The position numbers and the translations under genes are program-made. Below, one piece after another: positions 15,670 to 31,729 of a stretch of DNA of 64,000 bases. Position 1 is the first letter of the stretch, and every line of letters starts with the position of its first letter. Below the pieces are notes generated by a model, which did not search any database, was not told where the DNA came from, and saw nothing but the letters and a program-made list of their open reading frames with translations. Origin of the DNA: Hyphomicrobiales bacterium (GTDB lineage: Bacteria; Pseudomonadota; Alphaproteobacteria; Rhizobiales; Rhizobiaceae); the NCBI GenBank assembly GCA_900470285.1, contig UCAG01000005.1:124001-188000 (forward strand), in the 5' to 3' direction.

Positions 15670-15702
15670 ACCCTGCCGGAGTAAAACCGGCGGGGGTCTT
15701 TT
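15670..15702 (+). terminator. Rho-independent terminator of the sigma/DUF4142/cupredoxin operon
   Basis: The stem CCCTGCCGG / CCGGCGGGG around AGTAAAA is followed by TCTTTT. It marks the last clearly chromosomal feature before island 1. Confidence 0.8.
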
Positions 15703-17965: not shown

Positions 17966-18050
17966 CTTTATCCTCATAATGATAATATATTTTACCTTAT
18001 TAATATTATCATTATTTATAATAGTCTACCTTATTTCTATTTTTAAAAAT

Positions 18051-18782
18051 TTATAATAAAATTTTAATTTTATTAAACTCTAAAATATCTAAATTCACTT
18101 CGATATCTGTAGTAAATGCTTTTAAATATACTTCAGCATCAAAACCAATAAAGGAAACTCCACGTCCATTCAAATCTTTAAATACACGTAAAATTGCAGA
18201 TATTAATATAGGTACTACATTTATATACACCTGCTTTAAAGGATATCCTTCACTTTTAGACTGGATAATCATTTTCTCAAATTTTAAATCCCGATTAAAA
18301 GAATTTAAATGTTTTTGATTGTTTTTACAAAATTTTTCATCGTAATAAACCGAATTCACATCCAGAGTCAGTTTATGTAGAAAATCTTCCAGTTTATAAT
18401 ATTGGCGCATCACTATTATTGCTTTAGGCATTTGATGATTAAATAGCAAAAACTCAGCGCCTAGATGCTTTTCAAGACCACCCTTAAGCTGCATATATTC
18501 ATTCCAACTATGGAATAAATCATGGTTTTTATGGTGAATTGCATTTCTCATCAGTATAATTAAACTGGTGTCTCCATATTCAAAATAATCATAATTTTTT
18601 TTATCAACATCATAAAGACTGTGAAAAGCTTCTAGTACAGATTCAAATGACCTGTCTAAATTATGTATTGATTCTTCTTTATCAACTAAAAACATTCTTT
18701 TAAAATTTATATTTTCCTCCGCATACCTCCTCATGTTATTTGCTAGTTTACTTATTGCATTCTCAATTATATTTATACTCAT
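18051..18782 (-). CDS. HEPN-like protein, putative toxin/RNase partner of the GHKL ATPase
   Basis: 243 residues, all-helical in appearance, AT-rich and Lys/Asn-rich. The stretch LIILMRNAIHHKNHDLFHSW (about 74-93) contains R-N-A-I-H-H, which fits the R-x4-6-H active-site motif of HEPN RNases. The HEPN call is inference from this motif and the helical context; the protein is otherwise unrecognised. The start is uncertain: ATG at 18782 with weak GTGAG upstream, or GTG at 18791. It is the first gene of the pair with the GHKL ATPase, so both are probably on one transcript. Together they resemble a sensor/ATPase plus nuclease defence module. Confidence 0.6.
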   Translation of the reverse strand: MSINIIENAISKLANNMRRYAEENINFKRMFLVDKEESIHNLDRSFESVLEAFHSLYDVDKKNYDYFEYGDTSLIILMRNAIHHKNHDLFHSWNEYMQLKGGLEKHLGAEFLLFNHQMPKAIIVMRQYYKLEDFLHKLTLDVNSVYYDEKFCKNNQKHLNSFNRDLKFEKMIIQSKSEGYPLKQVYINVVPILISAILRVFKDLNGRGVSFIGFDAEVYLKAFTTDIEVNLDILEFNKIKILL

Positions 18783-18849
18783 TATACTCACGTCAATCTA
18801 ATTTTATTATCCAGCCAACTAATAGTAATATATAATAAAATAATATTAA

Positions 18850-20049
18850 TCAATAAACCAATCTTGCCCATATATCATATAATTCAGTCCTCCTTTGTAT
18901 ATGTTGAGCACGATTATAAGCAGCTTCGATTTTATCTTTAGGTGTGTGTGCTAGCATTGCATCAATAACATGCCGATCAGCAGGAAAATGCTCATTCATA
19001 ATCGTCGAAAAAGTTGAACGCCAACCATGCGGCACATGCCGTTGATAATAGCCTGCACGATTAAGCAGATAGCCTAAAGCATTTTCACTCATTGGCTTAT
19101 GTGCATGCCGTACATTAGGAAATACCAACGGACCCTTTCCAGTCAGAACGGCCAACTCTTTGATTGTTTCGACAGCTTGTCTGGATAGTGGCACGTAATG
19201 ATCGTTACGAGTATCATCTTTACGCGATAGGCTCATTTTCATACGAAATGCCGGTATTCGCCAGACCGGATTTTCCGGATCTAAATTTGCAAACTCACTC
19301 CATGGCGTCGTGATCAATGTTCCTGGTCTAACAACAGTTAGCATTAGTAGGCGCATTGCAAGCTTGGTCACTGGATGAGCTGGCGTATTTTCAACCGCGG
19401 CCATCACCTCCCGGGCTTCCTCAATCGTCAACACGGCCGGCCATCACCCTTTTTTGATAGGTGCCAATGCCTTCTGCACAATCGCTGCCGGATCATTATC
19501 GACGCAACCGCAGGCTATTGCATAGACAAACACCGCCGACATGCGTTGACGAACGCGGTGCGCGGTTTCTATTGCCGGCCGTCGCTCAATTTTACGCAAC
19601 ACATCCAACACATCAGGTGGAGTGATATCTTTTAGTGTTTCAGTACCAAGATAGGGAAATACGTCTCGCTCGAGGCTACCGATAACATCAGCTGCATGGC
19701 GTTCTGTCCACATAGATTTCTGCAGCTCATACCATTCGAGAGCGATAACTTCGAAGGTATTGTTTGTTGCTGCAATTTTGCGGCGCAGGGATTTTTTACG
19801 TTCCAGTGACGGGCTAAGGCCGGATTTTAATTGCTTACGCGCTTCTTCACGCATTTCTCGAGCTTCAAGCAGACTGACATCCGGATAAGTGCCCAATGAC
19901 AATATCGCCGCCTTGCCACCATAGCGATAACGATAGCGCCAGAGCTTACCACCAGCAGGCGTGATGAAGACAGACAGACCGTTGGCATCGGTCAGGTGGT
20001 ATGATTTCTCTGCGGGCTTGGCTTTACGAATTGCAACGTCAGTTAGCAT
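18850..20049 (-). pseudogene. P4-type tyrosine integrase interrupted by an in-frame TGA
   Basis: One continuous reading frame of 400 codons with a single internal TGA at 19444-19446. The N-terminal half (MLTDVAIRKAKPAEKSYHLTD...) is the P4-integrase N domain and core-binding domain. The C-terminal half carries the catalytic set: Arg in LTVVRPGTL, HGWRS (HxxR), LAHTPKD and the Tyr in AAYNRAQ. Around the stop the protein reads PIKKG-stop-WPAVLTIEE, where relatives typically have Arg, so CGA to TGA is the likely change. As it stands the recombinase would be truncated before its active site. A TTG at 19434 could restart only the catalytic half. Confidence 0.9.
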
Positions 20050-20217: not shown

Positions 20218-20235
20218 ATGGCGGAGGGGGTGGGA
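20218..20235. repeat. attL-like 18-bp repeat (copy of tRNA-Ser 3' end)
   Basis: ATGGCGGAGGGGGTGGGA here matches 31639-31656 base for base. The right copy is the 3' end of tRNA-Ser with its encoded CCA. The bases on either side differ. It marks the left junction of island 2 and, probably, the original attachment point of island 1. Confidence 0.9.
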
Positions 20236-20348
20236 CTGCCCTTCCCGTTAATTCTCAGTCATTTAGTTATCCCAACCAGCAATAATTGGCTCATTGAAAA
20301 CATTGAGAAATCTAAGCGCTTGCCTAACCATAATTTGGCAGGTGCGTG

Positions 20349-20735
20349 ATGCTTTCAGCCCGTTATCACCTCCTAAGAGACCGCACTATTTCAGCCGTTG
20401 ATAGGTCATTTGCTGAGCCTGTTCGCTTGCTGTTTATTGATGCGAAAACTGGCAAAGTCGATGAGAACCGTCCAGCCGTTGTAATTGAAGCTGTTCTACG
20501 TGTGGGTGGCGGCAAAACCACATCTGTTGCTCGTGCCGCTAGCTCTTCTTGGCGCACCCGTATTCATGCGCAAAAAGCTGAATTACATATCGACCGAACC
20601 AAATATCCTGATCTTGTTGTTCGTTCACGCGACATTGTGCGGGCGTTAGCGCGTACAGGAGAGCCGCGCTTCGAAGTTGCGGCGGTTGATGATCGTGGCA
20701 GTTCACGCCTAGTCTTACAGCTTGGTGAGGCTTGA
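20349..20735 (+). CDS. Hypothetical element protein, first gene of island 2
   Basis: 128 residues from the ATG at 20349; an adjacent GTG at 20346 is in frame. AGGTG lies just upstream. The protein is rich in Arg and beta-prone (AVVIEAVLRVGGGKTTSVARAASSSWRTRIHAQKAELHIDR). I do not recognise a family, and GGGKTT does not sit in a full P-loop context. The next gene starts 3 bp after its stop. Confidence 0.55.
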   Translation: MLSARYHLLRDRTISAVDRSFAEPVRLLFIDAKTGKVDENRPAVVIEAVLRVGGGKTTSVARAASSSWRTRIHAQKAELHIDRTKYPDLVVRSRDIVRALARTGEPRFEVAAVDDRGSSRLVLQLGEA

Positions 20736-20738
20736 GCC

Positions 20739-20936
20739 ATGACAGAACAGATTCGTCCTGAGGTTCTTACTGCGGCGCTGTGGCTTTCCCTGCACCGTGA
20801 CGAATGCCCTAACCCGATTATCCCATTTGTTCGCAAGCGCTTCTCGCTCACTGCGTTGGAGGCGATTACTGCGCTTAAACAGGGACGTATTCTTGCCAGA
20901 TCGGTCAACACGGGGGATCAGTGCAATGAGCGATGA
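20739..20936 (+). CDS. Small hypothetical element protein
   Basis: 65 residues, starting 3 bp after the previous stop and overlapping the following gene by 11 bp, as in a compact phage operon. LTAALWLSLHRDECPNPIIPFVRKRFSLTALEAITALKQGRIL suggests a small helical, possibly helix-turn-helix-like fold (SLTALEAITALK). Function unknown. Confidence 0.5.
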   Translation: MTEQIRPEVLTAALWLSLHRDECPNPIIPFVRKRFSLTALEAITALKQGRILARSVNTGDQCNER

Positions 20937-21894
20937 TTTCACCCTGAGCCGTATGATGTGGCTAGATCAGATTTATGATGATCTTGAGCTTACACCGGCG
21001 GCACGCGATGCAGCCTTTCGTATCAGCCGTTATTTCAACCGTAAGCGCTTCTCTGGCAGCGGCAACCTCAATGCATGGCCGTCCTATGAAACGCTTGCCA
21101 CTGAGGCCGGTTGCACGTCCAAGACGATCCAGCGAGCCGTTACGCTCCTTAAAAGCCGCGGTCATGTGGTCACGAGCGGCAAAGGCGGACGATCGAAAAC
21201 GCTGACTTATTTTGCCGTGATCAGAACCGTCACTCATACAGTAAATAATGAGGCGGAAATGCCTTCTGTGGCTGAAAATAAAGGTGGACAGGATTGTCCA
21301 CGTTTAGCGGAAAAGGTGGACATTACTGACCCGAAAGGTGGACATTTGAATGCCGTAAAGGTGGACACGAATGTCCTACAAACCTCTTTGAATAAATCTT
21401 TGAGTAAATCCTTGAGCGCGGAACGTGCGCATGACCCAGCCGACGAACCCTTCAAGGCTGCATGGTCGGTTGCTGTTTTCGAAAAGCTTTCGAAAGGTTC
21501 GGGACAACTACCAAGGCCGACTACCCAGCTATTGCGGCAATTGATCGAAGTCGAAAAGCGACCAGCTCATGTGTTGGAACATCAGGCGAAGCACGGCTGG
21601 CCTGAGCTCAACAGCATGTTCGAGCGGCTAAGGGCGCTTGAACCTGAAACCCTTGCGCCTGCGATCCGCAATATGGCTTTCGAGATGGAAGCTGTCACAT
21701 CGGGCAGCGCTCAATGGGCTGATTGGCAGAGCGAGTTTAGGGCTAGAGGGTGGCCGTTTCCTCAGGAGGCAAAGGCTATGGCGTTCCCACGCGGCGGGGT
21801 GAAGGCACTGGCGGCGTTCATGGCAGCGTTGAAAGCAAGGCAGACTGGCGGCGGGAACATCGTTCCTCTGTCGGCAAGAGCTGTCGGGTCTTGA
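20926..21894 (+). CDS. Helix-turn-helix protein, possible replication initiator or regulator
   Basis: 322 residues from ATG 20926 (MSDDFTLSRMM). The N-terminal part has a winged helix of the HTH_36 replication-protein type (WPSYETLATEAGCTSKTIQRAVTLLKSRGHV, about 46-76). A linker repeats short Gly-Gly-basic motifs (KGGQDCP, KGGHLNA), and a helical C-terminal domain follows. Phage and plasmid genomes carry such proteins as replication initiators or regulators. The start is favoured because GGGGG lies upstream and residues before it look non-coding. The following 99 bp to the terminase gene hold no other gene. Confidence 0.7.
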   Translation: MSDDFTLSRMMWLDQIYDDLELTPAARDAAFRISRYFNRKRFSGSGNLNAWPSYETLATEAGCTSKTIQRAVTLLKSRGHVVTSGKGGRSKTLTYFAVIRTVTHTVNNEAEMPSVAENKGGQDCPRLAEKVDITDPKGGHLNAVKVDTNVLQTSLNKSLSKSLSAERAHDPADEPFKAAWSVAVFEKLSKGSGQLPRPTTQLLRQLIEVEKRPAHVLEHQAKHGWPELNSMFERLRALEPETLAPAIRNMAFEMEAVTSGSAQWADWQSEFRARGWPFPQEAKAMAFPRGGVKALAAFMAALKARQTGGGNIVPLSARAVGS

Positions 21895-21993
21895 GGGCGC
21901 GGGTCCTTCCGGCCTCTTGGCTTTTGCGGGTAGGCGCGACTGCGGGATTTCGGTCTGTGCAACTAAATTTTATAGCTAAAAACAATAGGTTAA

Positions 21994-22539
21994 ATGGTTA
22001 TGATCATGCATATGGCTCATGAAGTTGCTACCGATCCGGCACTGAAACAGGAGCCGCGCACCATTTCCAAAAGCGGTTTTGCAAAGCTGATCAATGTTTC
22101 TGCAGGACGTGTTTCGCAGATGATCACAGCGGGCATGCCGGTTGATCGTGACGGGAAACTTGATGTGGCACGGTGCAAACTCTGGATCGCGGAGAATATC
22201 AACCCGACACGGGCAGCGGCGCAGGTGCAAGGGGCAACCCTGTTCGGTGAAGAAAAGCAGACCATTTCCCTCACAGCGGAACGGGCGCGATTGGCAAAGG
22301 CACAGGCCGATGCCGTGGAATTGAAAAACGCGACCTCGCGGCGCGAACTGGTTCCGGCTGCTGACGTTGAACGACTGTGGTCAGGGGAATGGATGCAGTT
22401 GCGTTCGAGCGTTCTTGCTGTGCCGTCACGACTGCGCCAGCGTCTCCCGCACCTGACTGCCGCCGATATTGAGGCCATAGACGGCGAACTGCGCCGGATG
22501 CTTACGGAGTTTGGAAATGATCAGGGAAGTGCTTCTTGA
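21994..22539 (+). CDS. Phage terminase small subunit (Nu1-like)
   Basis: 181 residues. The N-terminal winged helix SKSGFAKLINVSAGRVSQMITAGMPVDRDGKLDVARCKLWI (about 25-65) is the Nu1/terS DNA-binding domain. The middle region (ERARLAKAQADAVELKNATSRRELVPAADVERLW) is the family's coiled coil and motor-binding linker. It recognises pac or cos DNA and recruits the large subunit. Several clustered ATG codons (21994, 22000, 22006, 22012) make the exact start uncertain. It overlaps terL by 23 bp. Confidence 0.88.
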   Translation: MVMIMHMAHEVATDPALKQEPRTISKSGFAKLINVSAGRVSQMITAGMPVDRDGKLDVARCKLWIAENINPTRAAAQVQGATLFGEEKQTISLTAERARLAKAQADAVELKNATSRRELVPAADVERLWSGEWMQLRSSVLAVPSRLRQRLPHLTAADIEAIDGELRRMLTEFGNDQGSAS

Positions 22540-24298
22540 AGTCCGTAGCCGCGCACGCCGTGCGATTATCCCGCCTGCAAAGCTAAAACTGTCTGAATGG
22601 ATAGAGCAGGAAGTGAAACTGCCTGCTGATGTATCGTCTTTGCCTGGGGCGATCCGGCTCTATCCGTTTCAGCGCGGCATGGCCGATGCTATGAGCGATG
22701 CCAAGATCGAGCGCGTTACAGTCGTAAAATCAGCGCGTATTGGCTATACCACATTGCTGGTTAGCCTGCTTGGCTCTCATGTGGTGAATGAACCGGCACC
22801 GGTATTGTTCGTTCTCCCGACTGAGGATGATTGCCGCAATTTCGTTGTGTCGAATGTCGAACCAACCTTTGAGGCTTCCCCATGCCTTGCCGGTGCGCTT
22901 GTGTCCGATCAGGGCAGAGAAAAGCGGAATACGCTGCTATCACGCCGCTTTGCCGGTGGCAGCTTGAAAGTCATTGCAGCCAAGGCACCCCGTAATCTTC
23001 GCGCTCACAATGCCCGTGTCCTGATCATGGATGAAACAGACGGCATGGAAATGACAAAAGAAGGCAGCCCGATTCCGATTGCTGAACGGCGCACCATGTC
23101 CTTTCCTGACCGCAAAATCGTTATCGGATCCACACCAATTTATGAGGATAGCAGCCATGTGCTTAGTGCTTATGAACGGTCGGACAAGCGCATTTACGAA
23201 GTGCCCTGCCCTGAATGTGGTGATTTTCACGAGATCGAGTGGAAAGATATTCATTGGCCGGAAGGCGAACCGGCAAAGGCGCATTGGGCTTGCCCTAGTT
23301 GCGGCTCTGTTGTTGAGGAACAGAATAAAGGGGCGATGGTAACTGCTGGCCGCTGGCGTATCACCGCGCCGGAAGTAAAAGGCCATGCAGGTTTTCGTAT
23401 CAATTCTCTTGTATCACCACTGGAAAAGGCTGCATGGGGCGTTCTGGCAAAAGAGTTTATTGAGGCAAAAGACGATCCGGCATTGTTGCAAGCCTTCGTC
23501 AATCTTGTGCTGGGGCAAGGCTGGCGTGAAAGCGGCGAAGAAATGGACGATAGCGAGCTTGCAAGCCGTGCCGAGCAAATCTCGCTGGATATGCTACCGG
23601 AAAGTGTTCTTGCGCTCACAGCAGGCGTGGACACACAGCGCGACCGGCTTGAGGTGACAATCATCGGCTGGTCACGCGCTGGCGAAGCCTACATTCTTGA
23701 TCACAAGGTGATCTGGGGCTTGCCTGATGATGATGCCACATGGACGGAATTGGATGCCGTCTTGAAAATGCGCTTCGATCACCCGCTTGGCGGCAAGTTG
23801 GGGCTGGATGCCGTGGCAATCGACAGTTCGGACGGTGAGACAATGGAAGATGTCTATGCGTTCTGTTTCCCTCGATCTTCGCGCAAGGTACTCGCAATCA
23901 AAGGTGTGACCGGAAATCGCCCGTGGATTGAAAAATCGAAATCCAAGGTCAAAGGCGGCGCTCTCTGGATTGTTGGTGTAGATGGTCTGAAGTCACACCT
24001 GACAGCCCGATTGTCCCGTGGGCGCACAATCCGCTTTTCTGACCGGCTGCCACCCGTCTGGTATGAGCAGCTTGCCAGTGAACGCATTGTGGTGCGCTAC
24101 ACACGCGGCCAGCCACAGCGCCGGTTTGAGCGCATACCGGGGAGACGTGCAGAGGCGCTGGATTGTGTTGTCTATGCTTTTGCAGCGCGGCAGATTCTCA
24201 ATATCAACTGGGATCAGCGAGCCGATGATTTGCGGCTAGGAGTGGAAACGGCAGTGCCTAAAGTGCAGGCAGTTGTAAAATCGAAATGGCTGCGATGA
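22517..24298 (+). CDS. Phage terminase large subunit (lambda gpA-like)
   Basis: 593 residues. The ATPase part has a lambda-type Walker A variant (VVKSARIGYTTLLVS) and Walker B with catalytic Glu (VLIMDETDGM). A Cys4 zinc knuckle follows (VPCPECGDFHE ... WACPSCGSVVEE). The nuclease part has the acidic residues AGVDTQRDRLEV, AVAIDSSDGETM and EALDCVVYAF. Length and order match GpA-family packaging motors, which cut concatemers and pump DNA into the head. ATG 22517 is chosen over TTG 22511 because GGAG is 7 nt upstream. A hairpin follows at about 24369-24402. Confidence 0.95.
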   Translation: MIREVLLEVRSRARRAIIPPAKLKLSEWIEQEVKLPADVSSLPGAIRLYPFQRGMADAMSDAKIERVTVVKSARIGYTTLLVSLLGSHVVNEPAPVLFVLPTEDDCRNFVVSNVEPTFEASPCLAGALVSDQGREKRNTLLSRRFAGGSLKVIAAKAPRNLRAHNARVLIMDETDGMEMTKEGSPIPIAERRTMSFPDRKIVIGSTPIYEDSSHVLSAYERSDKRIYEVPCPECGDFHEIEWKDIHWPEGEPAKAHWACPSCGSVVEEQNKGAMVTAGRWRITAPEVKGHAGFRINSLVSPLEKAAWGVLAKEFIEAKDDPALLQAFVNLVLGQGWRESGEEMDDSELASRAEQISLDMLPESVLALTAGVDTQRDRLEVTIIGWSRAGEAYILDHKVIWGLPDDDATWTELDAVLKMRFDHPLGGKLGLDAVAIDSSDGETMEDVYAFCFPRSSRKVLAIKGVTGNRPWIEKSKSKVKGGALWIVGVDGLKSHLTARLSRGRTIRFSDRLPPVWYEQLASERIVVRYTRGQPQRRFERIPGRRAEALDCVVYAFAARQILNINWDQRADDLRLGVETAVPKVQAVVKSKWLR

Positions 24299-24368
24299 AA
24301 AATAGGGTCGATAAATTTGCGTGTTAGAGTCCTTAGTGACTTTGTGCGCTTGGTATGGGCGTTATCAA

Positions 24369-24402
24369 TAGCGCAGCGCCATCATCGTAAGGCGCTGCTA
24401 TC
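24369..24402. terminator. Hairpin between terL and the minus-strand cargo genes
   Basis: GCAGCGCC (24373-24380) pairs with GGCGCTGC (24391-24398), extended by ATAG/CTAT. It separates convergent terL and the cargo gene ending at 24425. The T-run is poor, so termination is only likely. Confidence 0.5.
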
Positions 24403-24424
24403 ATCTTTGGAAAAATTTGACGAT

Positions 24425-24772
24425 TTAGAATGGTATCATGTCATCAAGCTCTTTATAAATCTCTTCAATTACTACATCTAAATTGAGAGCTTTGCGTTTT
24501 GCTATCTTAAAAAGTTCTTCAATTTTACCATATTTTGAAGAAAATGTATCATACGCAATAGAGTCTATAACAGTAGTTGCATCAATAGGCCTCAACCCAA
24601 TTGATATGCCCTCGACTCCATTTTCATCTTCCCATTCCCATGTACTTACATTGTATTTTGAATGAACACTTGCTTCAAAATGATTTTTATATCCATCCCT
24701 CTCACGCCAATTTACGAGGCCTTCTTTCGTTCTTTCAATCAGAACTGGTATAAGATCTTCGAGGGTTTTCAT
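24425..24772 (-). CDS. Cargo protein of unknown function (115 aa)
   Basis: 115 residues, AT-rich. The first half has a short basic/aromatic beta region (RTKEGLVNWRERDGYKNHFEASV), the second half two acidic helices (KIEELFKIAKRKALNLDVVIEEIYKELDD). I know no family function. Its start overlaps the stop of the upstream membrane-protein gene (ATGA), so the two are coupled. It sits on the opposite strand from the packaging genes. Confidence 0.6.
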   Translation of the reverse strand: MKTLEDLIPVLIERTKEGLVNWRERDGYKNHFEASVHSKYNVSTWEWEDENGVEGISIGLRPIDATTVIDSIAYDTFSSKYGKIEELFKIAKRKALNLDVVIEEIYKELDDMIPF

Positions 24773-25290
24773 TTAATGACTTCCTTGCGATTATTTTCCA
24801 GCGTTTCACTTTCCCAACTAGTTACTATGCTAAGAAGCTCATCTATGGTTCGATGAAGTGTATTGTTGTTAAATTTTGTACTGTTCTCAGCGCCCCAACT
24901 GATGTGGTGATCAATTTTTGCAAAAGTTCGATTGAGTTGTTCACTTGCTATAATATCTATTTTTTTCTCGTTTGCATGAAGCCTAATTGATCTTTTTATT
25001 GGCGTGAATAATATTTGAGCGACAGAAAAATCATTATTTTTAATAAGAAGTAGTATTGCATTAATTTGAGCATTTACATAAGCCAAGTTAACGCCATCAA
25101 CATGAGTTTTAATCTGATTTATTGCTGACTGCGCAGATTGTGTGGCCGTTTTTATTTTAAATAATTGCCATATAGTAAAGAAAAAACCAGTGATCGTTAC
25201 TGCTGATACAAACCAGTTCAGAAATCCCAAAACTTCTGTTGACATTAAGTAACATAGTTTATCGCCATCAAGGCATTCACTTATAGGCAT
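24769..25290 (-). CDS. Membrane-anchored cargo protein (173 aa)
   Basis: 173 residues. One strong membrane helix near the N terminus (LGFLNWFVSAVTITGFFFTIWQLF, about residues 21-44) is followed by a long helical cytoplasmic-type domain (ATQSAQSAINQIKTHVDG...). An internal start (MSTEVLGF) at residue 16 is possible. It lies 6 bp after the ribbon-helix-helix gene and overlaps the next gene. The layout, a single membrane helix plus helical domain coupled to a small soluble partner in phage cargo, is reminiscent of membrane-acting abortive-infection effectors. That is inference only. Confidence 0.6.
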   Translation of the reverse strand: MPISECLDGDKLCYLMSTEVLGFLNWFVSAVTITGFFFTIWQLFKIKTATQSAQSAINQIKTHVDGVNLAYVNAQINAILLLIKNNDFSVAQILFTPIKRSIRLHANEKKIDIIASEQLNRTFAKIDHHISWGAENSTKFNNNTLHRTIDELLSIVTSWESETLENNRKEVIK

Positions 25291-25296
25291 GCAATT

Positions 25297-25485
25297 TTAA
25301 CCTATGTTTAGCGCTTGATTCAGCAGTCGTCTGATTGCTTCTGGGCGTGTGGGAATATCGTCTTGATTGCGGCGATACTCTTCAATCGCATTAAGCGTCT
25401 TACGAGGTAAACGCAGATTGATCGCCTCTGTATCTACAGTAGGACGCCCTTTTTTTGATTTCTTGGTACCATCTATTGACTTCAT
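25297..25485 (-). CDS. Ribbon-helix-helix (CopG/Arc-type) regulator
   Basis: 62 residues. A basic N-terminal arm (KKSKKGRPTVDTEA) precedes a ribbon-helix-helix fold: strand INLRLPRKTLNAIEEYRR, turn, then IPTRPEAIRRLLNQAL. Such proteins repress their own operon or act as antitoxins. It is the first gene of the minus-strand cassette, and a perfect 13-bp inverted repeat begins 26 bp upstream, a plausible self-operator. Confidence 0.75.
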   Translation of the reverse strand: MKSIDGTKKSKKGRPTVDTEAINLRLPRKTLNAIEEYRRNQDDIPTRPEAIRRLLNQALNIG

Positions 25486-25511
25486 GGTTTAATGGTGCCA
25501 CAAAATAAGCA

Positions 25512-25543
25512 GCCGTACAAGATGCTGTAACATCTTGTACGGC
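25512..25543. promoter_or_regulatory. Perfect 13-bp inverted repeat, candidate operator
   Basis: GCCGTACAAGATG (25512-25524) and CATCTTGTACGGC (25531-25543) flank CTGTAA. The repeat lies in the 93-bp divergent gap between the ribbon-helix-helix gene and the Tat-signal gene at 25579, so it could control both directions. A bidirectional hairpin is possible, but there is no T-run. Confidence 0.6.
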
Positions 25544-25578
25544 CTAACCGAAACGCTAATCGTACGAGGATTGAGCGC

Positions 25579-26049
25579 ATGGCTAATGCTGCCCATATCA
25601 CACGCCGTTCTATTTTTAAACTAGCACCCGCTGCCATTTTAGCTACTGGCGGGGCTATTGCTGCGATTCCATCAGAAGCCGCCCCTCTCACTCTTGAGCA
25701 AGAGATTGATATGGCAGTCGCGCACCTTGAAGCTTTGCTTGCCAAGAAATACCCCTCCGCAATTCCGAATAGAATTTTGCTTGAGAATACTATCACCCCC
25801 ACAAGAGAGGGTGGGTATGTAATGTATTTAATGGCGCAACCACCTGAAATTGCTTGGTCTGGCAATGGATATTATGAGGTTTTTCTCTCTGTGAGAGACA
25901 AAGAACCAACAGTGATGTGGGTAGAAAAACACTGGTGCAAAATCAAACAGGATTATGAGTATCCTGCCTATGAGGGAGAGAAGGCATTACGCGTTATTCC
26001 TTGTGTATACTTCACCAGAACCTCACTCAAGATTCGCCGAAAATTGTGA
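25579..26049 (+). CDS. Tat-signal exported protein of unknown function
   Basis: 156 residues. The N terminus ITRRSIFKLAPAAILATGGA followed by AIPSEA is a typical twin-arginine signal ending near residue 35. The mature part is about 120 residues with no recognised domain (MYLMAQPPEIAWSGNGYYEVFLSVRD). GAGG precedes the ATG. Exported proteins are unusual inside a head-gene cluster, so this is probably cargo rather than a capsid component. Confidence 0.6.
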   Translation: MANAAHITRRSIFKLAPAAILATGGAIAAIPSEAAPLTLEQEIDMAVAHLEALLAKKYPSAIPNRILLENTITPTREGGYVMYLMAQPPEIAWSGNGYYEVFLSVRDKEPTVMWVEKHWCKIKQDYEYPAYEGEKALRVIPCVYFTRTSLKIRRKL

Positions 26050-26139
26050 GGCAAGAGGTAATCACTCATATTTGGTTTTTTGATTTGAAAACTAAATATA
26101 AAGTGTTAGTATTTCTCCACATAAAGGAGCTACACAAAG

Positions 26140-26778
26140 ATGGCTACAGTTACAGAGATTTGTGAAGTTATAGCGCGTTCGGCAAATATGCCGCTTGATG
26201 ATGTAAAAAAATATGCACGCGCTTTGGTCAATTCCGGCGACTTGCCAAAGGCTGTGGGACGCGCCGTACCGCATACTGATATGCATCATAGAGCAAAGCT
26301 TATTTTGGCTATTGCAGCTAGTGACAGAGCAAATGATTGCGTCGTTGCAATGCGCCAGCGCTATGAAGCTACATTACGTCATTCCCCTGATGGGCGAAGC
26401 TTTGGCGATATTCTTGCCGACGAATTACGCGAACTTTCAGACAAGTCACTGCCTGCCTATCAAAAATGGCTTTATTCTAATCTGACAGTTTCACGATCTG
26501 AACCAACAGTAACGTTACGGATCAACGAGAACATTAGAAACTATGAACCACAAACAACTAGTGAGCTGGTCTATGTCGGCCGTGAACTTTTGTTTCAGGA
26601 TATCGACGGATTAATCGAAATCAGAAAGAAATATAAAGATACTGGGTTGCCAGTGTCAGCCTTTGTCTCTGGCCGAATTCTAATAGCTTTGGCCTTTGGT
26701 TCTATAGAAGCATGGGAACTGGCGGATCGAGAAATTTCGATAGCATTTGATGCCATAAACAATTCTTCGAATAGCTAA
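26140..26778 (+). CDS. Hypothetical element protein upstream of portal
   Basis: 212 residues, with AAGGAG 10 nt before the ATG and only 10 bp to the portal gene. The N terminus (VTEICEVIARSANMPLDDVKKYARALVNSGDLPKAVGR) looks like a winged helix-turn-helix. The central and C-terminal parts are mixed helix and strand without a known motif. Similar N-terminal patterns occur in phage regulators, so a DNA-binding role is plausible but unproven. Confidence 0.6.
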   Translation: MATVTEICEVIARSANMPLDDVKKYARALVNSGDLPKAVGRAVPHTDMHHRAKLILAIAASDRANDCVVAMRQRYEATLRHSPDGRSFGDILADELRELSDKSLPAYQKWLYSNLTVSRSEPTVTLRINENIRNYEPQTTSELVYVGRELLFQDIDGLIEIRKKYKDTGLPVSAFVSGRILIALAFGSIEAWELADREISIAFDAINNSSNS

Positions 26779-26788
26779 GGAAAAGTCT

Positions 26789-28078
26789 ATGTGGCCGCTC
26801 TCTATTTTCTCGCAAAAGAACAAAGATAATGCAAATCATAAACGTGCCGTGAACGCTTCAAGCGGTAACTGGCCTGATGATGTGCGTACACTCTCTGGTG
26901 CTACTGATATCCGGCAGGCTGGACAAACCGTTTCTCAGCGAGTGGCAGGGCTTTACATCAATGATCCTGTCGTGCGTTCCGCGGTCAATCTGATTGTTTC
27001 TCAAATCGTTGGCAGCGGTGTGCGTTTGAACACGGCAGATCAAGGCATTGATACGCGGTTTAATGCTTCACGCATTGATCCGTCCGCGCTCATGTCCATT
27101 ACTGCTATGCAGCGTGCCGCTATTCGCTCTTGGGTTATCAGTGGTGAAATCCTTGGTCTGCACCGCGTTATTGGTGGTCGCTATGCATTTCAGCTTCTCG
27201 ATCCTGAACAGCTTGACCGCTCAAAAAATACGAATTTAGGCGCTTCCGGTACAATCGTTGCCGGTGTCGAGCGTGATAGTTTTGGTGTGATTGTTGCCTA
27301 TTGGATATTACCGCATTCTTCCGGCGATCCGTTTGCGCTGAATATGCAATCTTTTCGCTTTGACGCAGCGGATGTGGTGCATGTCTTTGAGCATGAATTT
27401 GCAGGGCAAGTGCGCGGGATTAGTCCCCTTGTTGCTACTTTGCCAGTGCTTAACAATGCCAGTATTGCCATTGAGGCGCGGCTGAAACAGTTACAAGTCA
27501 GCGCCATGCTGACCGCTATTCTGACCAGCCCTGACGGCACAGATGCTTTTGACGGTAATCCTAATCCGTCACTTGAACCGGGGGCGATTATTCGCGCCCG
27601 CCCAGGTGAGCAGGTGGAAGTTGTAAACGGACCACAGTCGCCGGACTTCAACGCCTTTATCAAAGTGCTTTATCGTCAGATCGCCGCGTCTGTTGGCGTG
27701 ACCTATGAAGACCTGATCGGCGATCTCGAAGGCGTGAATTATTCCAGCTTTCGTGGCGGTGCTTTGACGGCACGGCGCAAGGCCGAAGCCACCCGCAAAG
27801 TGCTGTTAATTGAAGGCGTTCTCGATCCTGTATTCAGCCGCTGGCAGGCCATTGAACGCTTAGCCGGTCGGGTACGTGCCGAATTAGATCACAGTTGGAT
27901 TGAACCAAGCTGGCCGGAAATCGACCGTCTCAAAGAAGCCAATGCAGATATTTCATTGCTTAAAGCAGGGTTGAAATCCCGCAAAGAAATCATCGAAGCG
28001 CGTGGCCGTGAATATCAGACCGTGCAATCAGAAATTCAGGCTGACAATTTTGTCATGCCACAGGGAGCTTTGAAATGA
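26789..28078 (+). CDS. Phage portal protein (lambda family)
   Basis: 429 residues. The family features are VVRSAVNLIVSQIVGSGVRLN near residue 60, RWVISGEI-type motif (RSWVISGEILGLHR), LLDPEQLD, HVFEHEFAGQVRGISPL, and the clip/stem region IKVLYRQIAASVGVTYEDLIGDLEGVNYSSFRGG, typical of lambda gpB-like portals. It forms the dodecameric ring through which DNA enters the head. It is shorter than lambda gpB (533), fitting a compact head. The stop overlaps the protease-capsid gene by 4 bp. Confidence 0.93.
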   Translation: MWPLSIFSQKNKDNANHKRAVNASSGNWPDDVRTLSGATDIRQAGQTVSQRVAGLYINDPVVRSAVNLIVSQIVGSGVRLNTADQGIDTRFNASRIDPSALMSITAMQRAAIRSWVISGEILGLHRVIGGRYAFQLLDPEQLDRSKNTNLGASGTIVAGVERDSFGVIVAYWILPHSSGDPFALNMQSFRFDAADVVHVFEHEFAGQVRGISPLVATLPVLNNASIAIEARLKQLQVSAMLTAILTSPDGTDAFDGNPNPSLEPGAIIRARPGEQVEVVNGPQSPDFNAFIKVLYRQIAASVGVTYEDLIGDLEGVNYSSFRGGALTARRKAEATRKVLLIEGVLDPVFSRWQAIERLAGRVRAELDHSWIEPSWPEIDRLKEANADISLLKAGLKSRKEIIEARGREYQTVQSEIQADNFVMPQGALK

Positions 28079-29856
28079 CAAATCTTGTTCGCCGTTTTCA
28101 GGCTCGCTCAAAGCCGAATAGTTACGATCCAGAAACGCGCAGTTTCACTGTGGTTGTGGCTACGTCTGCCCCTGTGAACTGCGGCAGTCATTTTGAAATT
28201 CTGGACTTGGTTTCCTTTGGAGCCTCTGGCTGGCCGGAAAGCCTGCCATTGCAAACAGATCATTCTATCAGTGTCCGCGACACGGTAGGCATTCTTTCTA
28301 ATTTCCGCCTCGAAACTATCGAAGGCGACATTAAAGCCCTCATTGCTGATGGGCGTTTATCTTCGTGCGCTGATAATGACGCGCTCGCCGCCAATCTTAA
28401 GGATGGTGTGCAGACCAGTTTTTCCATTTCCTTTTCCGTTTCGAAATGGCGGGACAGCACAGACCCGACGACTGGCCGCAAGGTCAGAACAGCCCTTTCA
28501 GGCAAGCTGATTGAGGGCAGCTTTGTGGTCAATCCTGCTGACCCCCATTCAAGAGTCAGGAGTGATCCTATGGATCCCGAAGAAACAACACAAATTAACC
28601 GTATGACGGTTGAGCAGTGGGACACGGTTTGCCGTGCTGCCGGTGTGCCGGATGCGGTACGCGAAGCCCTACGCAATTCCGATACACCCGATAGCGAACG
28701 CACGGCACTGGCACTTGCTGCCGTTGAACGTAGCACACCACAGGTTCGCACACTACGCCAACACAATGATGAAACACTCGATAATCCAGTTGTGCTGCGC
28801 AATGCCGTTGTGAATTTCTATGATACGGTCAACCGTGGTGAGCAACCAAGCGGACAGGCTGCGGAAGTATTCGCACAAGGTGAGCGCGCTCTTGCCGAGC
28901 GCCTGTGCCGTAGTGCTGGCATTGCAACCGTTGGTTTGTCAGATGCGGAAGTTGTGCGCCGTGCAGCTACCACGTCCGATTTTCCGATTATTGCCGGTGG
29001 TACTTTCAATCTGGCAATGCGCCGCGAACTGGATGCAGCCGCCTCGCCTGTTGCCGCCTTATTTGGCCGTGACAGTGTTTCAACCTTCAATGCCGAAACA
29101 CGCGGCCTTGTCGATTGGACAAGTCTTGCCATTGCCGACAAACTGGAAAGCGGCGAATACAAACACTCGTTTCTCCATGAGTCAGGCGAAACCGTCAGCG
29201 TTGCTGTGATTGGTGGGATTACCAGTAAGTCTTATGAGCTGACAATCAATGCCGGCTCACGCCTTGGCAATGACGGGACACAATTCGGTAAGCGTATGGC
29301 TGCGGAAATCGCAGATCGTCAGGTTGCTTATGTAGAACAAGGCAACTTATCCGGTCCGAAAATGAAAGACGGGAATACCGTTTTCCATGCCAGCCGTGGC
29401 AATATTCTGAATTTGTCTCTGGATGGTGTGACCGAAGTTAAACAGATGATGCGCGCCCGTTCCGCTATGGCGAAACGCAAGGGCGTGGGTGATGTGATGA
29501 TCGGTGTTTATCCGACACACTGGCTTGTGCATTCTGATTTTGAAGAAACAGCACTACGCCTTCTTGCTAGCATTCAGGCCTCCGCTATTGCCGATGTGAA
29601 CCCGCTGGCCGGTAAACTGCAAGTGGTTGTTGAACCGCGTCTCTCTAAGCCTGATGCGTCATGGCTCGTTGCATCCCCTGCAAAAATGGATGGTGCGGTG
29701 CGCGTCTATCTGCAAGGGCAGGAAGCACCGTTTACCGACAGCCGGATCGAATTCACCACCGATGCTGTGCAGTTTAAAATCCGCCACCCGTTCGGTCTTG
29801 GTTGGCTGGAATGGCGAAGCTGGACACGCCTTGATCATAAGGTTGTGCAGCCATGA
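28075..29856 (+). CDS. Prohead protease fused to major capsid protein
   Basis: 593 residues. The N-terminal domain (about 1-165) is a prohead-protease fold with a His (LPLQTDHSISVRDTVG) and Ser (GVQTSFSISFSV) in the order of the U35/herpes-type assembly proteases. A linker or scaffold-like helical region follows (about 170-290). The C-terminal 300 residues form an HK97-like major capsid protein (ATTSDFPIIAGGTFN; FFIRHPFGLGW-type ending IRHPFGLGWLEWRSW). Both functions lie in one intact frame, so self-cleavage during head assembly is expected. It overlaps portal and gpW-like genes by 4 bp each. Confidence 0.88.
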   Translation: MTNLVRRFQARSKPNSYDPETRSFTVVVATSAPVNCGSHFEILDLVSFGASGWPESLPLQTDHSISVRDTVGILSNFRLETIEGDIKALIADGRLSSCADNDALAANLKDGVQTSFSISFSVSKWRDSTDPTTGRKVRTALSGKLIEGSFVVNPADPHSRVRSDPMDPEETTQINRMTVEQWDTVCRAAGVPDAVREALRNSDTPDSERTALALAAVERSTPQVRTLRQHNDETLDNPVVLRNAVVNFYDTVNRGEQPSGQAAEVFAQGERALAERLCRSAGIATVGLSDAEVVRRAATTSDFPIIAGGTFNLAMRRELDAAASPVAALFGRDSVSTFNAETRGLVDWTSLAIADKLESGEYKHSFLHESGETVSVAVIGGITSKSYELTINAGSRLGNDGTQFGKRMAAEIADRQVAYVEQGNLSGPKMKDGNTVFHASRGNILNLSLDGVTEVKQMMRARSAMAKRKGVGDVMIGVYPTHWLVHSDFEETALRLLASIQASAIADVNPLAGKLQVVVEPRLSKPDASWLVASPAKMDGAVRVYLQGQEAPFTDSRIEFTTDAVQFKIRHPFGLGWLEWRSWTRLDHKVVQP

Positions 29857-30062
29857 ACATAGCAGAGATGCAGCAACAGCTTGCGAACCTTCGCGCTTTA
29901 CGCGCGGAGGGTGTTCGCAAAACACGCTTTGGCGAGGATGAAACCGAATATCGCAGTGACGCTGAGTTGGCTGCTGCCATTGCTGATCTCGAAAGACGTA
30001 TTGCGGCAGCGGCAAAGCCGACCAGCCGATTGATTTATCCTAGAGTTTCTAAGGGTTATTAA
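29853..30062 (+). CDS. gpW-like head-tail joining protein
   Basis: 69 residues: MNIAEMQQQLANLRALRAEGVRKTRFGEDETEYRSDAEL-type pattern followed by AAAIADLERRIAA. Two helices flank a short beta hairpin, matching the small gpW connector that closes the filled head and receives the tail. It is the only connector gene seen. Its start overlaps the capsid stop by 4 bp. Confidence 0.8.
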   Translation: MNIAEMQQQLANLRALRAEGVRKTRFGEDETEYRSDAELAAAIADLERRIAAAAKPTSRLIYPRVSKGY

Positions 30063-30063
30063 T

Positions 30064-30336
30064 ATGGAAATTCAGCTTCTTGGTGTGCGACTTTATAAAG
30101 GCGAAGCAAAAGCAGGTTTTAATGTGCTGGCTTATGCTGACTTAAGCATTGAAGGTGGGCTGATTATTCGCGGTGCCGCTCTTGTATTTTGCAAGGGCGA
30201 ATACCGTGTGTGGCCACCGTTGAGCAAAGATCAGAAAAAGGCGGTTCGTTGGCAGCATGATAGCCCATTCCATGCGGCTATTATGAAACTTGTTCTGCCT
30301 GCCTATCAGGTGATTACTGGCAAGTTGGAGGGTTAA
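30064..30336 (+). CDS. Hypothetical element protein (90 aa)
   Basis: 90 residues, beginning one base after the gpW-like stop. Beta-rich N-terminal part (VRLYKGEAKAGFNVLAYADLSIEGGLIIRGAALVF ... YRVWPPLSKDQKKAVRW) loosely resembles SpoVG-like small nucleic-acid-binding folds, but I am not confident. No tail-protein signature is visible. Confidence 0.55.
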   Translation: MEIQLLGVRLYKGEAKAGFNVLAYADLSIEGGLIIRGAALVFCKGEYRVWPPLSKDQKKAVRWQHDSPFHAAIMKLVLPAYQVITGKLEG

Positions 30337-30340
30337 GAAC

Positions 30341-30526
30341 ATGGCAAAACGTTCCGCCCTAATTCAGCAATCAGATGCAACACGGTTACTTAAAGCAGCG
30401 CGAGCGGCTGGGTATAACCGTGCATCTTTACGCATAACTGAAGGCACTATCGAAATTGTCGGTGAGCTTGTTGAGATTGGTGACGCGCAATCAACCAGCT
30501 CATGGGATGAGGTATTACTGAAATGA
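30341..30526 (+). CDS. Small protein coupled to the integrase, possible excisionase
   Basis: 61 residues (ATRLLKAARAAGYNRASLRITEGTIEIVGELVEIG). The stop overlaps the integrase start by 4 bp (ATGA). A recombination directionality factor is a natural guess from position, but the sequence shows no Xis-type helix-turn-helix. Confidence 0.55.
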   Translation: MAKRSALIQQSDATRLLKAARAAGYNRASLRITEGTIEIVGELVEIGDAQSTSSWDEVLLK

Positions 30527-31611
30527 AACGGAGAAACGGCCTTCCTAAGCACTGTTCGCTCGTGATTGATCGGCATGGGAAGCGCCGTATTCGTTTTCGG
30601 CAAAAAGGTTTTTCGACCTATCTGCCTTATCCGCCAAGCGGCGATGATTTTACCAAGGCATATGGGGCAGCGCTAGCTGGCGTGAAGGATTGGCAAGCTA
30701 ATATTGGTGGCGACCGTACTCGATCAGGCTCGTTTAATGCGCTTTGTGTAGCTTATTATAGATCACCTGAGTTTACAGGACAGCGCCAAACCACACAAAC
30801 AACCTATCGCGGAATCATTGAGCGTTTTCGAAAACAGCATGGTGATAAGATTGTTAAAGACCTGAGAAGAGAACACGTTAAGGCTATTATCGGCGGTATG
30901 TCCGATAGACCACATGCCGCAAATAACCTTCTTTCAATTTTGAAAATCATGCTGGATTTAGCGCTGGATAATGGCTGGATACAGAGCAATCCGGCGCGTG
31001 GAGTTCGGGGTTTTACCAAGAAAACAGTTGGTTTTCATTCTTGGACGGATGAAGAGATTGAAGCCTATGAAACACGGCACTCATCCGGCAGTAAAGCACG
31101 TCTTGCTCTTGCCCTGTTGCTCTATACTGCGCAGCGCCGTGGTGACGTTATTAAAATGGGCTGGCAACATATCAATCAAAATCGAATACGGGTTGTGCAG
31201 GGAAAAACCGGCGTTGAACTGCTTTTAAAAATTCACCCTCTCTTAGAGGTTGAATTAGCTACTGTTCAAAATAAGAACCTGACATTTCTCGTTACCGAAT
31301 ACGGCGCACCTTTCTCAGAAGCGGGATTCGGTAACTGGTTTAGAGATAGGTGCCGTGAAGCAGGCCTCACCAATTGCTCCGCACACGGTTTAAGAAAAGC
31401 TGCTGCACGTCGAATGGCAGAAGCAGGAATGTCAGCGGATATTATCAAATCCGTTACAGGCCATACGAACTTAAAAACTCTCTCACTCTACACAAATGCT
31501 GCTGATCAAGTTCGTCTCTCTGGAATGGGTATTGATGCAATAGGAAGATCAGAAGACGAACATAATTTGACCAACCTAGAAAGAAAGTTGGACAAAAAAG
31601 GAGATAAGTAA
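30523..31611 (+). CDS. int: Tyrosine recombinase (integrase) of island 2
   Basis: 362 residues. N-terminal arm/core-binding domain to about 165, then the catalytic domain with Arg in LLYTAQRRGDVIKMG, HGLRKAAARRM (HxxR), GHTNLKTLSLYTNAAD carrying His and the nucleophilic Tyr. All catalytic residues are present and the frame is intact, unlike the island 1 integrase. It ends 28 bp before the 18-bp repeat at the tRNA-Ser 3' end, so integration at tRNA-Ser is its probable activity. Confidence 0.95.
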   Translation: MKRRNGLPKHCSLVIDRHGKRRIRFRQKGFSTYLPYPPSGDDFTKAYGAALAGVKDWQANIGGDRTRSGSFNALCVAYYRSPEFTGQRQTTQTTYRGIIERFRKQHGDKIVKDLRREHVKAIIGGMSDRPHAANNLLSILKIMLDLALDNGWIQSNPARGVRGFTKKTVGFHSWTDEEIEAYETRHSSGSKARLALALLLYTAQRRGDVIKMGWQHINQNRIRVVQGKTGVELLLKIHPLLEVELATVQNKNLTFLVTEYGAPFSEAGFGNWFRDRCREAGLTNCSAHGLRKAAARRMAEAGMSADIIKSVTGHTNLKTLSLYTNAADQVRLSGMGIDAIGRSEDEHNLTNLERKLDKKGDK

Positions 31612-31638
31612 TTGAATTTATATGTTTATTTTAAACAG

Positions 31639-31656
31639 ATGGCGGAGGGGGTGGGA
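31639..31656. repeat. attR-like 18-bp repeat within tRNA-Ser 3' end
   Basis: Exact match of 20218-20235. The repeat covers the encoded CCA, the discriminator, the acceptor 3' strand and the start of the T stem of tRNA-Ser, so the element restores an intact tRNA when it inserts. Confidence 0.9.
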
Positions 31657-31729
31657 TTCGAACCCACGGTACGGTCTCCCGCACGCCGGTTTTCAAGACC
31701 GGTGCCTTAAACCACTCGGCCACCCCTCC
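31640..31729 (-). tRNA. tRNA-Ser(UGA), attachment site of islands 1 and 2
   Basis: A 90-nt class II tRNA on the minus strand. The acceptor GGAGGGG pairs with CCCCTCC, followed by G and CCA. The anticodon loop CTTGAAA gives TGA. The T arm has GGTTCGAATCC. The long variable arm fits serine. Confidence 0.95.

Follow-up and report, generated by a model that had tools for sequence, protein, structure and literature searches.

What kind of mobile element carries genes for a phage head and packaging motor, and none for a tail, in only 11.4 kb? The question is raised by positions 20218–31656 of a 64,000-nucleotide stretch of a Hyphomicrobiales bacterium genome (assembly GCA_900470285.1, contig UCAG01000005.1, positions 124,001 to 188,000 of the forward strand; hereafter the window), an interval at a tRNA-Ser gene that the initial annotation had proposed as a candidate capsid-forming phage satellite. 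Our analysis supported this proposal, and we hold with high confidence that the element is a capsid-forming phage satellite that borrows its tails: the tail-less layout recurs in 26 bounded elements, and the packaging genes are intact and, as judged from their substitution ratios, under purifying selection.

The element is bounded by an exact 18-bp repeat, as had been noted before, and the right copy coincides with the 3' end of an intact tRNA-Ser(TGA) gene on the minus strand. With up to two mismatches allowed, the window contains the 17-nt core of this attachment (att) repeat just twice, and two copies appeared in none of 100 shuffles. The tRNA-Ser site was without the element in the five congeners whose site was recovered; a sixth congener compared was 61% complete, and its only match was a dispersed repeat. 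Because chromosomal similarity to congener G170 (96% identity in the right flank) ends at window position 15691 and restarts at 31639, the window, which belongs to a genome of 3.81 Mb, carries a 15.9-kb insertion, which is interpreted as two units, of which the left has an integrase split into two open reading frames (ORFs).

Comparison of the window ORFs with Pfam and PHROGs families showed that the element possesses the features of a capsid-forming satellite, namely its own integrase and specific att site, its own major capsid protein, protease, portal and connector, both terminase subunits (TerS and TerL) and, as predicted from sequence, its own replication module with an origin (Table 1). 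The frames of the integrase, initiator, terS, terL, portal, protease-capsid fusion and connector all translate without a stop. Among the window ORFs scanned, none matched a family of tail, tape-measure, lysis or polymerase proteins, and the features of a tailed prophage (tail, lysis, full-length genome) were not found in the element. The gene inventory of the initial annotation, in what it listed as intact and in what it listed as missing, was borne out, and its helix-turn-helix (HTH) protein, which is indeed one, proved more exactly to be a lambda-O-like replication initiator with internal iterons.

A search of genome contigs with the capsid gave eight loci. Two of them, with capsids 91% and 90% identical to that of the window, are located on one Brucella pituitosa contig at tmRNA and tRNA-Phe genes; these two copies of the element differ in cargo and in integrase (identity to the window integrase 31% and 25% in the matched part). 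The other loci were found in a Hyphomicrobiales metagenome-assembled genome (MAG), a Pseudomonadota MAG (at tRNA-Met), a Hoeflea MAG (at tRNA-Arg) and more distant ones. When 397 genomes of the order were searched with TerL (E up to 1e-100), 33 places in 31 genomes were found, and 32 of these were examined, a contig fragment in G312 being left out. Twenty were tail-less with both att copies, three were tail-less with att not found (L131, L144 and L146), three were rearranged variants (L121, L124 with a tape measure, and L134), five were tailed (L120, L129, L138 and L143 by markers, L145 by ORF reading), and L141 alone was given no class.

The 20 elements of the TerL search and L034, L035, L038, L039, L058 and L060 made up the 26 att-bounded elements, which measure 10.9–13.0 kb (mean 12.03 kb, standard deviation 0.50), a narrow range that is partly conditioned because the att search skipped distances below 9 kb and had the fetched stretch of 15–22 kb as its upper limit. 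Such a single tight genome size across divergent members suggests a fixed small head. Their att repeats of 13–50 bases lie at tRNA or tmRNA genes. By tblastn with the query set, terS, terL and portal were each detected in 26/26 elements, capsid in 25 (the 26th, L128, by blastp), a DUF2190 decoration protein in 22, the replication gene in 20, the integrase in 18 (four ORFs of the relatives' pool match PF00589) and the Ad1 adaptor in 17, and a gap of 0.8–3.1 kb separates terL from portal in every element.

Nineteen tail and neck markers, mostly from contractile tails and tape measures, were matched by none of the 26 bounded elements. The same markers were matched by 12 of 15 tailed control loci, five of which had supplied markers, and by seven of the ten controls that had supplied none, the exceptions being L145, L068 and L069. 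Pfam comparison of 144 of the 161 unlabelled ORFs of 25 relatives (left out were the 11 shortest, five long and likely antisense, and one of 56 amino acids (aa)) gave 23 families, including HTH_3, integrases, primases, MerR, HEPN and an HNH repeat, with none for tail or lysis, and no tail or lysis family was present among the best 25 of 64 PHROGs families; the gene calls of the relatives were made by a simple ORF picker and include some antisense errors. Among 80 contigs kept from 214 capsid relatives in IMG/VR, many of them short, no tail-marker match above 40 bits was found. The initial annotation had proposed to compare att sites and gene content of terL-portal-capsid relatives and to search their unlabelled genes for tail proteins, and had taken tail and lysis genes in the same att interval as the mark of a trimmed prophage; the comparison yielded 26 tail-less bounded elements of similar layout, with tail or lysis genes detected in none of them.

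In a tree of portal proteins, 37 rows without a full tail (33 satellites, three variants and one unlabelled) fell on one side of a branch and 12 rows labelled tailed on the opposite side, with a Shimodaira–Hasegawa-like approximate likelihood ratio (SH-aLRT) of 98; the tree was a quick one without bootstrap, long branches were flagged, and its rows, like those of the TerL tree, were chosen by likeness to the window's genes. Two of the loci were also read ORF by ORF: L068 appears as a head-only remnant, with head genes near-identical to those of the siphovirus-like L069 followed by chromosomal-looking genes, and L085 has siphovirus-like genes downstream. Matches to named phages were all below 60% identity, the best among the matches listed being approximately 36% for TerL, 30% for capsid and 29% for portal. 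The ratios of nonsynonymous to synonymous substitution rates (dN/dS), obtained by comparing the window with the two B. pituitosa copies and the copies with each other, were 0.02–0.07 for terS, terL, portal and capsid, 0.08–0.17 for orf129, 0.13–0.22 for the initiator and 0.10 for Ad1 (0.32 between the B. pituitosa copies, resting on just four changes); these ratios are rough because, for most genes, dS relative to the window is close to 1 or exceeds it.

The initiator gene contains a cluster of iterons at the same place in all five sequences compared (the window and four relatives, one of which has one AAAGGTGGACA copy a base off), and the observed count was reached by none of 300 codon shuffles in each of the five. 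An origin inside the initiator gene is known from lambda O. With a lambda-O-like initiator and iterons within its gene, the element appears to possess a replication module.

The gap preceding terS keeps a block with 24 bases identical in four of five aligned sequences, the window being one base off. The word GGGTCCTTCC, which like the search stretch was picked after inspection of five close relatives, was found with at most one mismatch 430–800 bases upstream of terL in 17 of the 26 elements (13 exact), including 14 of the 23 outside those used to derive the pattern; its density in this stretch of the 26 elements was 1.77 per kb vs 0.033 per kb elsewhere. In Serratia phage BZS1, which has a terminase of the same class, cosL is annotated at the start of the record, 74 bases upstream of terS, and an exact GGGTCCTTCC is located 31 bases from the other end. 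An exact GGGTCCTTCC also occurs 31 bases from the record end of Vibrio phage MAR and 29 bases from that of VP58.5, these two phages being near-identical. The MAR record terminates in TGCGGG, and the window reads TGCGGG up to 21930. On the basis of these distances and of the terminal TGCGGG of MAR, the ends of the packaged DNA are placed near 21931, in a putative cos site upstream of terS.

The model of orf129 predicted by AlphaFold (predicted local distance difference test, pLDDT, 78; predicted template modelling score, pTM, 0.65) gave as best Foldseek matches the lambda neck protein (8k37_M, E 2e-4) and the phage Chi neck protein (E 4e-4), with template modelling (TM) scores of 0.55–0.68, followed by T4 gp13/gp14 and other neck or stopper proteins at E 1e-3 or weaker. 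Proteins 39% and 41% identical to orf129 are encoded in the contractile-tailed prophages L086 and L120, where their genes are located 3' of the capsid and decoration genes and 5' of baseplate genes. The orf129 product is therefore probably a neck stopper of the lambda gpFII type, and with it the structural set of the element would reach the tail interface. The model of the capsid protein, by comparison, was too poor (pLDDT 58, pTM 0.31) and no fold search was run with it, and its sequence gave one weak match to solved structures (E 0.009).

Of the tailed loci compared, the L086 prophage, found in congener G230, has the TerL closest to that of the window (61% identity), and it shares the cos-like core with the window at 3/26 mismatches. 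It is located 3' of the same tRNA-Ser gene as that targeted by the satellite (locus L253 in G230), with an integrase-like ORF starting beside the gene; no second exact copy of the first 14 att bases was detected near L086 up to 80 kb of contig. A contractile-tailed temperate phage like L086 is the most likely helper.

The element carries genes for its own copying and its own head and none for a tail, and so it probably spreads with the tails of other phages; its excision, its particles and its dependence on a helper are inferred. In the proposed mechanism, the satellite would sit in tRNA-Ser by means of its own integrase, would excise when a helper phage becomes active, and would replicate from the iteron origin inside its initiator gene. 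Its TerS and TerL would then cut the concatemer at its own cos site, and approximately 11.4 kb would be pumped through its own portal into its own small heads. The gpW-like adaptor and the gpFII-like stopper would close the neck of these heads, and the helper would provide both the tails for them and their release from the cell. The candidate helper type and the predicted DNA ends make tail borrowing directly testable.

Several observations weigh against the conclusion that the element is a tail-borrowing satellite. Some att repeats are short (13–16 bases), an integrase was not recognised in every bounded element, the window element is without the DUF2190 decoration protein though most of the bounded elements have it, and terminal repeats were found in none of the 80 IMG/VR contigs. 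The cos word is missing at up to one mismatch from nine of the 26 elements and is present in four of ten loci labelled tailed. The stopper candidate orf129 was found in just five of the 26, so that the other elements would need the stopper of the helper. No resident helper of the proposed kind was found, since the host genome gave no match to the L086-type sheath or to the PF10145 tape measure; among the seven genomes of the genus searched, the host included, the sheath was found in four and PF10145 in five. The portal tree includes just one named phage, and its label 'tailed' is weak for L068 and the unclassed L141. The TerL tree does not part satellites from tailed loci (label changes: satellites 7, tailed 5), and the tailed L086, L120, L129 and L138 fall inside the same large clade as the satellites; because satellites and tailed loci are mixed in it, terminases have probably been exchanged. 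Finally, dN/dS relative to L033 was higher (portal 0.13, capsid 0.17), and most dS values relative to the window are approximately 1 or higher.

The alternative that survives best, though we consider it highly unlikely, is that the element is a prophage, trimmed or in decay, which has lost tail and lysis genes as well as its mobility. The lack of tail and lysis genes, the homology of the head genes to those of tailed phages, the missing decoration gene and the existence of the head-only remnant L068 (by ORF reading) in the same family of hosts would all be expected of it, whereas a similar tail-less layout shared by 26 bounded elements of nearly one size at many tRNA genes, a portal tree in which every row without a full tail lies on the same side of a branch, and open packaging frames under purifying selection argue otherwise. 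A lone prophage remnant was rejected on these grounds. Satellites such as the one described here could easily be filed as incomplete prophages.

Table 1. Positions of genes, sites and the target tRNA gene in the window, with the matches or remarks for each
Feature	Positions	Strand	Match or remark
attL	20218..20235		18-bp exact copy
orf129, probable lambda gpFII-like neck / head-completion (stopper) protein	20346..20735	+	phrog_25398; AlphaFold and Foldseek
orf65	20739..20936	+	kept in both B. pituitosa copies
Replication initiator, lambda-O-like HTH protein	20926..21894	+	phrog_270 E 1.6e-15; O-like phrog_391/678; PF13730
Putative iteron origin inside initiator gene	21280..21367		four direct AAAGGTGGACA and one inverted near-copy, then A+T-rich stretch
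Putative cos site	21901..21986	+	GGGTCCTTCC ... TGCGGG / GCGCGACTGCGGGATTTCGGTCTGTG ... 24-nt block; predicted DNA ends near 21931
terS, small terminase	21994..22539	+	phrog_57 E 2.7e-34; PF07471 slightly below cut-off
terL, gpA-type large terminase	22511..24298	+	PF05876 E 5e-90; PF20454 E 1e-97; phrog_15
Cargo ORF, 115 aa	24425..24772	-	sub-threshold AcrF1-like match
Cargo ORF, 173 aa	24769..25290	-	
Ribbon-helix-helix repressor-like protein	25297..25485	-	phrog_4738 E 6e-8
Cargo ORF, 156 aa	25579..26049	+	phrog_38066 E 0.002; presumed twin-arginine-like signal
orf212, directly upstream of portal	26140..26778	+	slot holds unlike proteins in relatives, some with HTH domains
Portal, lambda family	26789..28078	+	PF05136 E 9e-65
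Prohead protease fused to major capsid protein	28075..29856	+	phrog_4523 E 3e-68; PF25209 E 8e-28; PF04586 slightly below cut-off
Ad1, gpW-like head-tail adaptor	29853..30062	+	phrog_2545 E 3e-16
orf90	30064..30336	+	kept in close relatives
orf61, small gene upstream of integrase	30341..30526	+	
Tyrosine integrase	30523..31611	+	PF00589 E 7.5e-20; phrog_1
attR	31639..31656		18-bp exact copy, within 3' end of tRNA-Ser
tRNA-Ser(TGA)	31640..31729	-	target gene, kept intact

The variable stretch of approximately 2.5 kb between terL and portal contains three reverse-strand ORFs, the 156-aa ORF, whose signal motif we take to be twin-arginine-like, and the 212-aa ORF. The scan of this cargo for defence genes gave sub-threshold matches only. 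An anti-CRISPR (AcrF1) identity is not claimed for the 115-aa ORF, its score against the AcrF1-like family PF20829 being 18.1 bits, below the Pfam cut-off of 30.5. No relatives of the 115-aa and 156-aa genes were found in IMG/VR, and no homology was found among 12 proteins compared from the orf212 slot (10–17% identity). A second unit (15998–20049) is stacked at the same tRNA-Ser as the satellite; its integrase is split into ORFs 18850–19434 and 19444–20049, it also has a GHKL-ATPase-like gene and one further gene, its G+C falls to 0.27–0.36, and it gave no clear match to any defence family.

Seven further loci found via the capsid (L040, L041, L059, L061, L062, L066 and L072), also at tRNA genes and with a protease-capsid fusion, are of a sister type in which searches with TerL, portal and terS of the window gave no match, other TerL or portal types having been searched for in L041 only. 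An orf129-like neck protein was present in six of the seven (not L059), the att copies were 10.6–12.0 kb apart in six (not L072), and a tape measure related to those of L041 and L059 was encoded on the opposite strand in six (not L062). In L041 (1688–12282), PHROGs comparison identified an integrase, terS, a tape measure (phrog_794, E 9e-113), the capsid and phrog_25398, and the tape measures of L059 and L066 were confirmed likewise. Sister-type elements may be satellites that determine tail length as well as head size; a satellite design with capsid and tape measure was without description among the literature matches listed, as far as their titles and abstract openings tell.

Other loci with related genes were also observed. 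L124 and L067 are TerL/portal/capsid elements that also have a tape-measure gene, in a different gene order. A 10.7-kb 'plasmid' of Rhodovastum atsumiense (NZ_OW485609.1, L256) encodes a protease-capsid fusion, a DUF3987 protein, ParA and toxin-antitoxin genes, with no annotated terminase or portal, and is a possible extrachromosomal relative. The Paracoccus sp. SMMA_5 plasmid pNSM5a (L257) has the same order of terL, cargo, portal, capsid and DUF2190, its cargo slot holding methyltransferases and an HNH gene, which suggests that the satellite family reaches Rhodobacterales.

Taken together, these results lead us to lean, with reservation, towards a broader interpretation, in which the window element belongs to an old, order-wide radiation (Hyphomicrobiales by its named members) of satellites that make their own heads for approximately 12 kb, whose portals constitute a single lineage next to, and not nested in, the portals of tailed phages, and which swap initiators or primases, integrases and the contents of a 2-kb cargo slot. 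Together with the sister type (own capsid, usually neck and tape measure, no TerL or portal), this radiation would represent a second, independent invention of structural-gene satellites not derived from capsid-forming phage-inducible chromosomal islands (cf-PICIs), one type stealing tails and the other setting the head size and tail length of its helper. Head-making, tail-borrowing satellites would be extended in this way to Alphaproteobacteria, with a head, terminase, initiator and cos site unlike those described for cf-PICIs; no alphaproteobacterial capsid-forming satellite was described among the matches listed in the open-access literature, at the level of titles and starts of abstracts. 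The initial annotation had likewise proposed an alphaproteobacterial counterpart with its own architecture, which is supported, and had counted the lack of an AlpA/primase module as part of that architecture; because some relatives carry primases and AlpA/MerR-like excisionases, this lack is a trait of the window element and not of the lineage.

Comparison with known systems begins with the cf-PICIs, whose gene set as described in PMC10690885 comprises capsid, protease, portal, connectors, terminases and HNH, and which obtain tails from a helper. Other sources add that the capsids of cf-PICIs fall into three clades (PMC11389934), that the tails used by cf-PICIs are diverse (mentioned in PMC13345910, which cites He 2025) and that the Gram-negative PICIs of PMC6092414 are gammaproteobacterial. 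The window element resembles cf-PICIs such as EcCIEDL933 in having its own capsid, protease, portal, connectors, both terminase subunits, integrase and att sites and no tail genes (PMC10690885, as excerpted), and this shared functional set is what would favour its being a true member of that family instead of an independent lineage working alike. Such membership is nevertheless very improbable in our judgement: neither an AlpA-type regulator and primase module nor an HNH endonuclease was matched in the window element (one ORF of a relative matches HNH_repeat), and the gpA-type terminase, the lambda-family portal, the protease fused to a phrog_4523 capsid and the lambda-O-like initiator with internal iterons set it apart from cf-PICIs as described, as do the size of its family (approximately 12 kb vs approximately 14 kb) and its occurrence in Alphaproteobacteria. 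The heads of E. coli cf-PICIs are of the HK97 type. The element would work like a cf-PICI and is not assigned to the family, a judgement made from cf-PICI descriptions only. Least probable of all, to the point of being nearly negligible, is a domesticated head-and-packaging cassette without transmission as a satellite (like a gene transfer agent, or a defensive particle trapping helper components), for which the lack of a resident tail source of the types searched and the variable genes between terL and portal could be cited, and against which stand the retained integrase, att sites, iterons and cos-like site, the site without the element in five congeners, and the different integrases and targets of close relatives.

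The capsid-forming satellite proposed here also shares with the Streptomyces satellites MulchRoom and MiniFlayer the encoding of terminases, portal, capsid and head-tail adaptor (PMC10690885, in the part available); compared by description, the latter differ from it in belonging to Actinomycetota, in being satellites of virulent phages and in having direct terminal repeats, and MiniFlayer has tail fibres. Like P4, classical PICIs and phage-inducible chromosomal minimalist islands (PICMIs), it is a small integrative element dependent on phages, and the P4 genome is also approximately 11–12 kb in length; those elements, however, use or remodel helper capsids, whereas the window element encodes its own head and motor. 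With VHML-like contractile-tailed prophages of the same order, represented by L086, it has in common a related TerL (61% identity), the cos-like core, an orf129 homologue, the vicinity of the same tRNA-Ser and an integrase of its own, but L086 has contractile tail genes, its portal is just 24% identical, and this portal is located approximately 350 bases 3' of terL with no variable region between them, unlike that of the window element.

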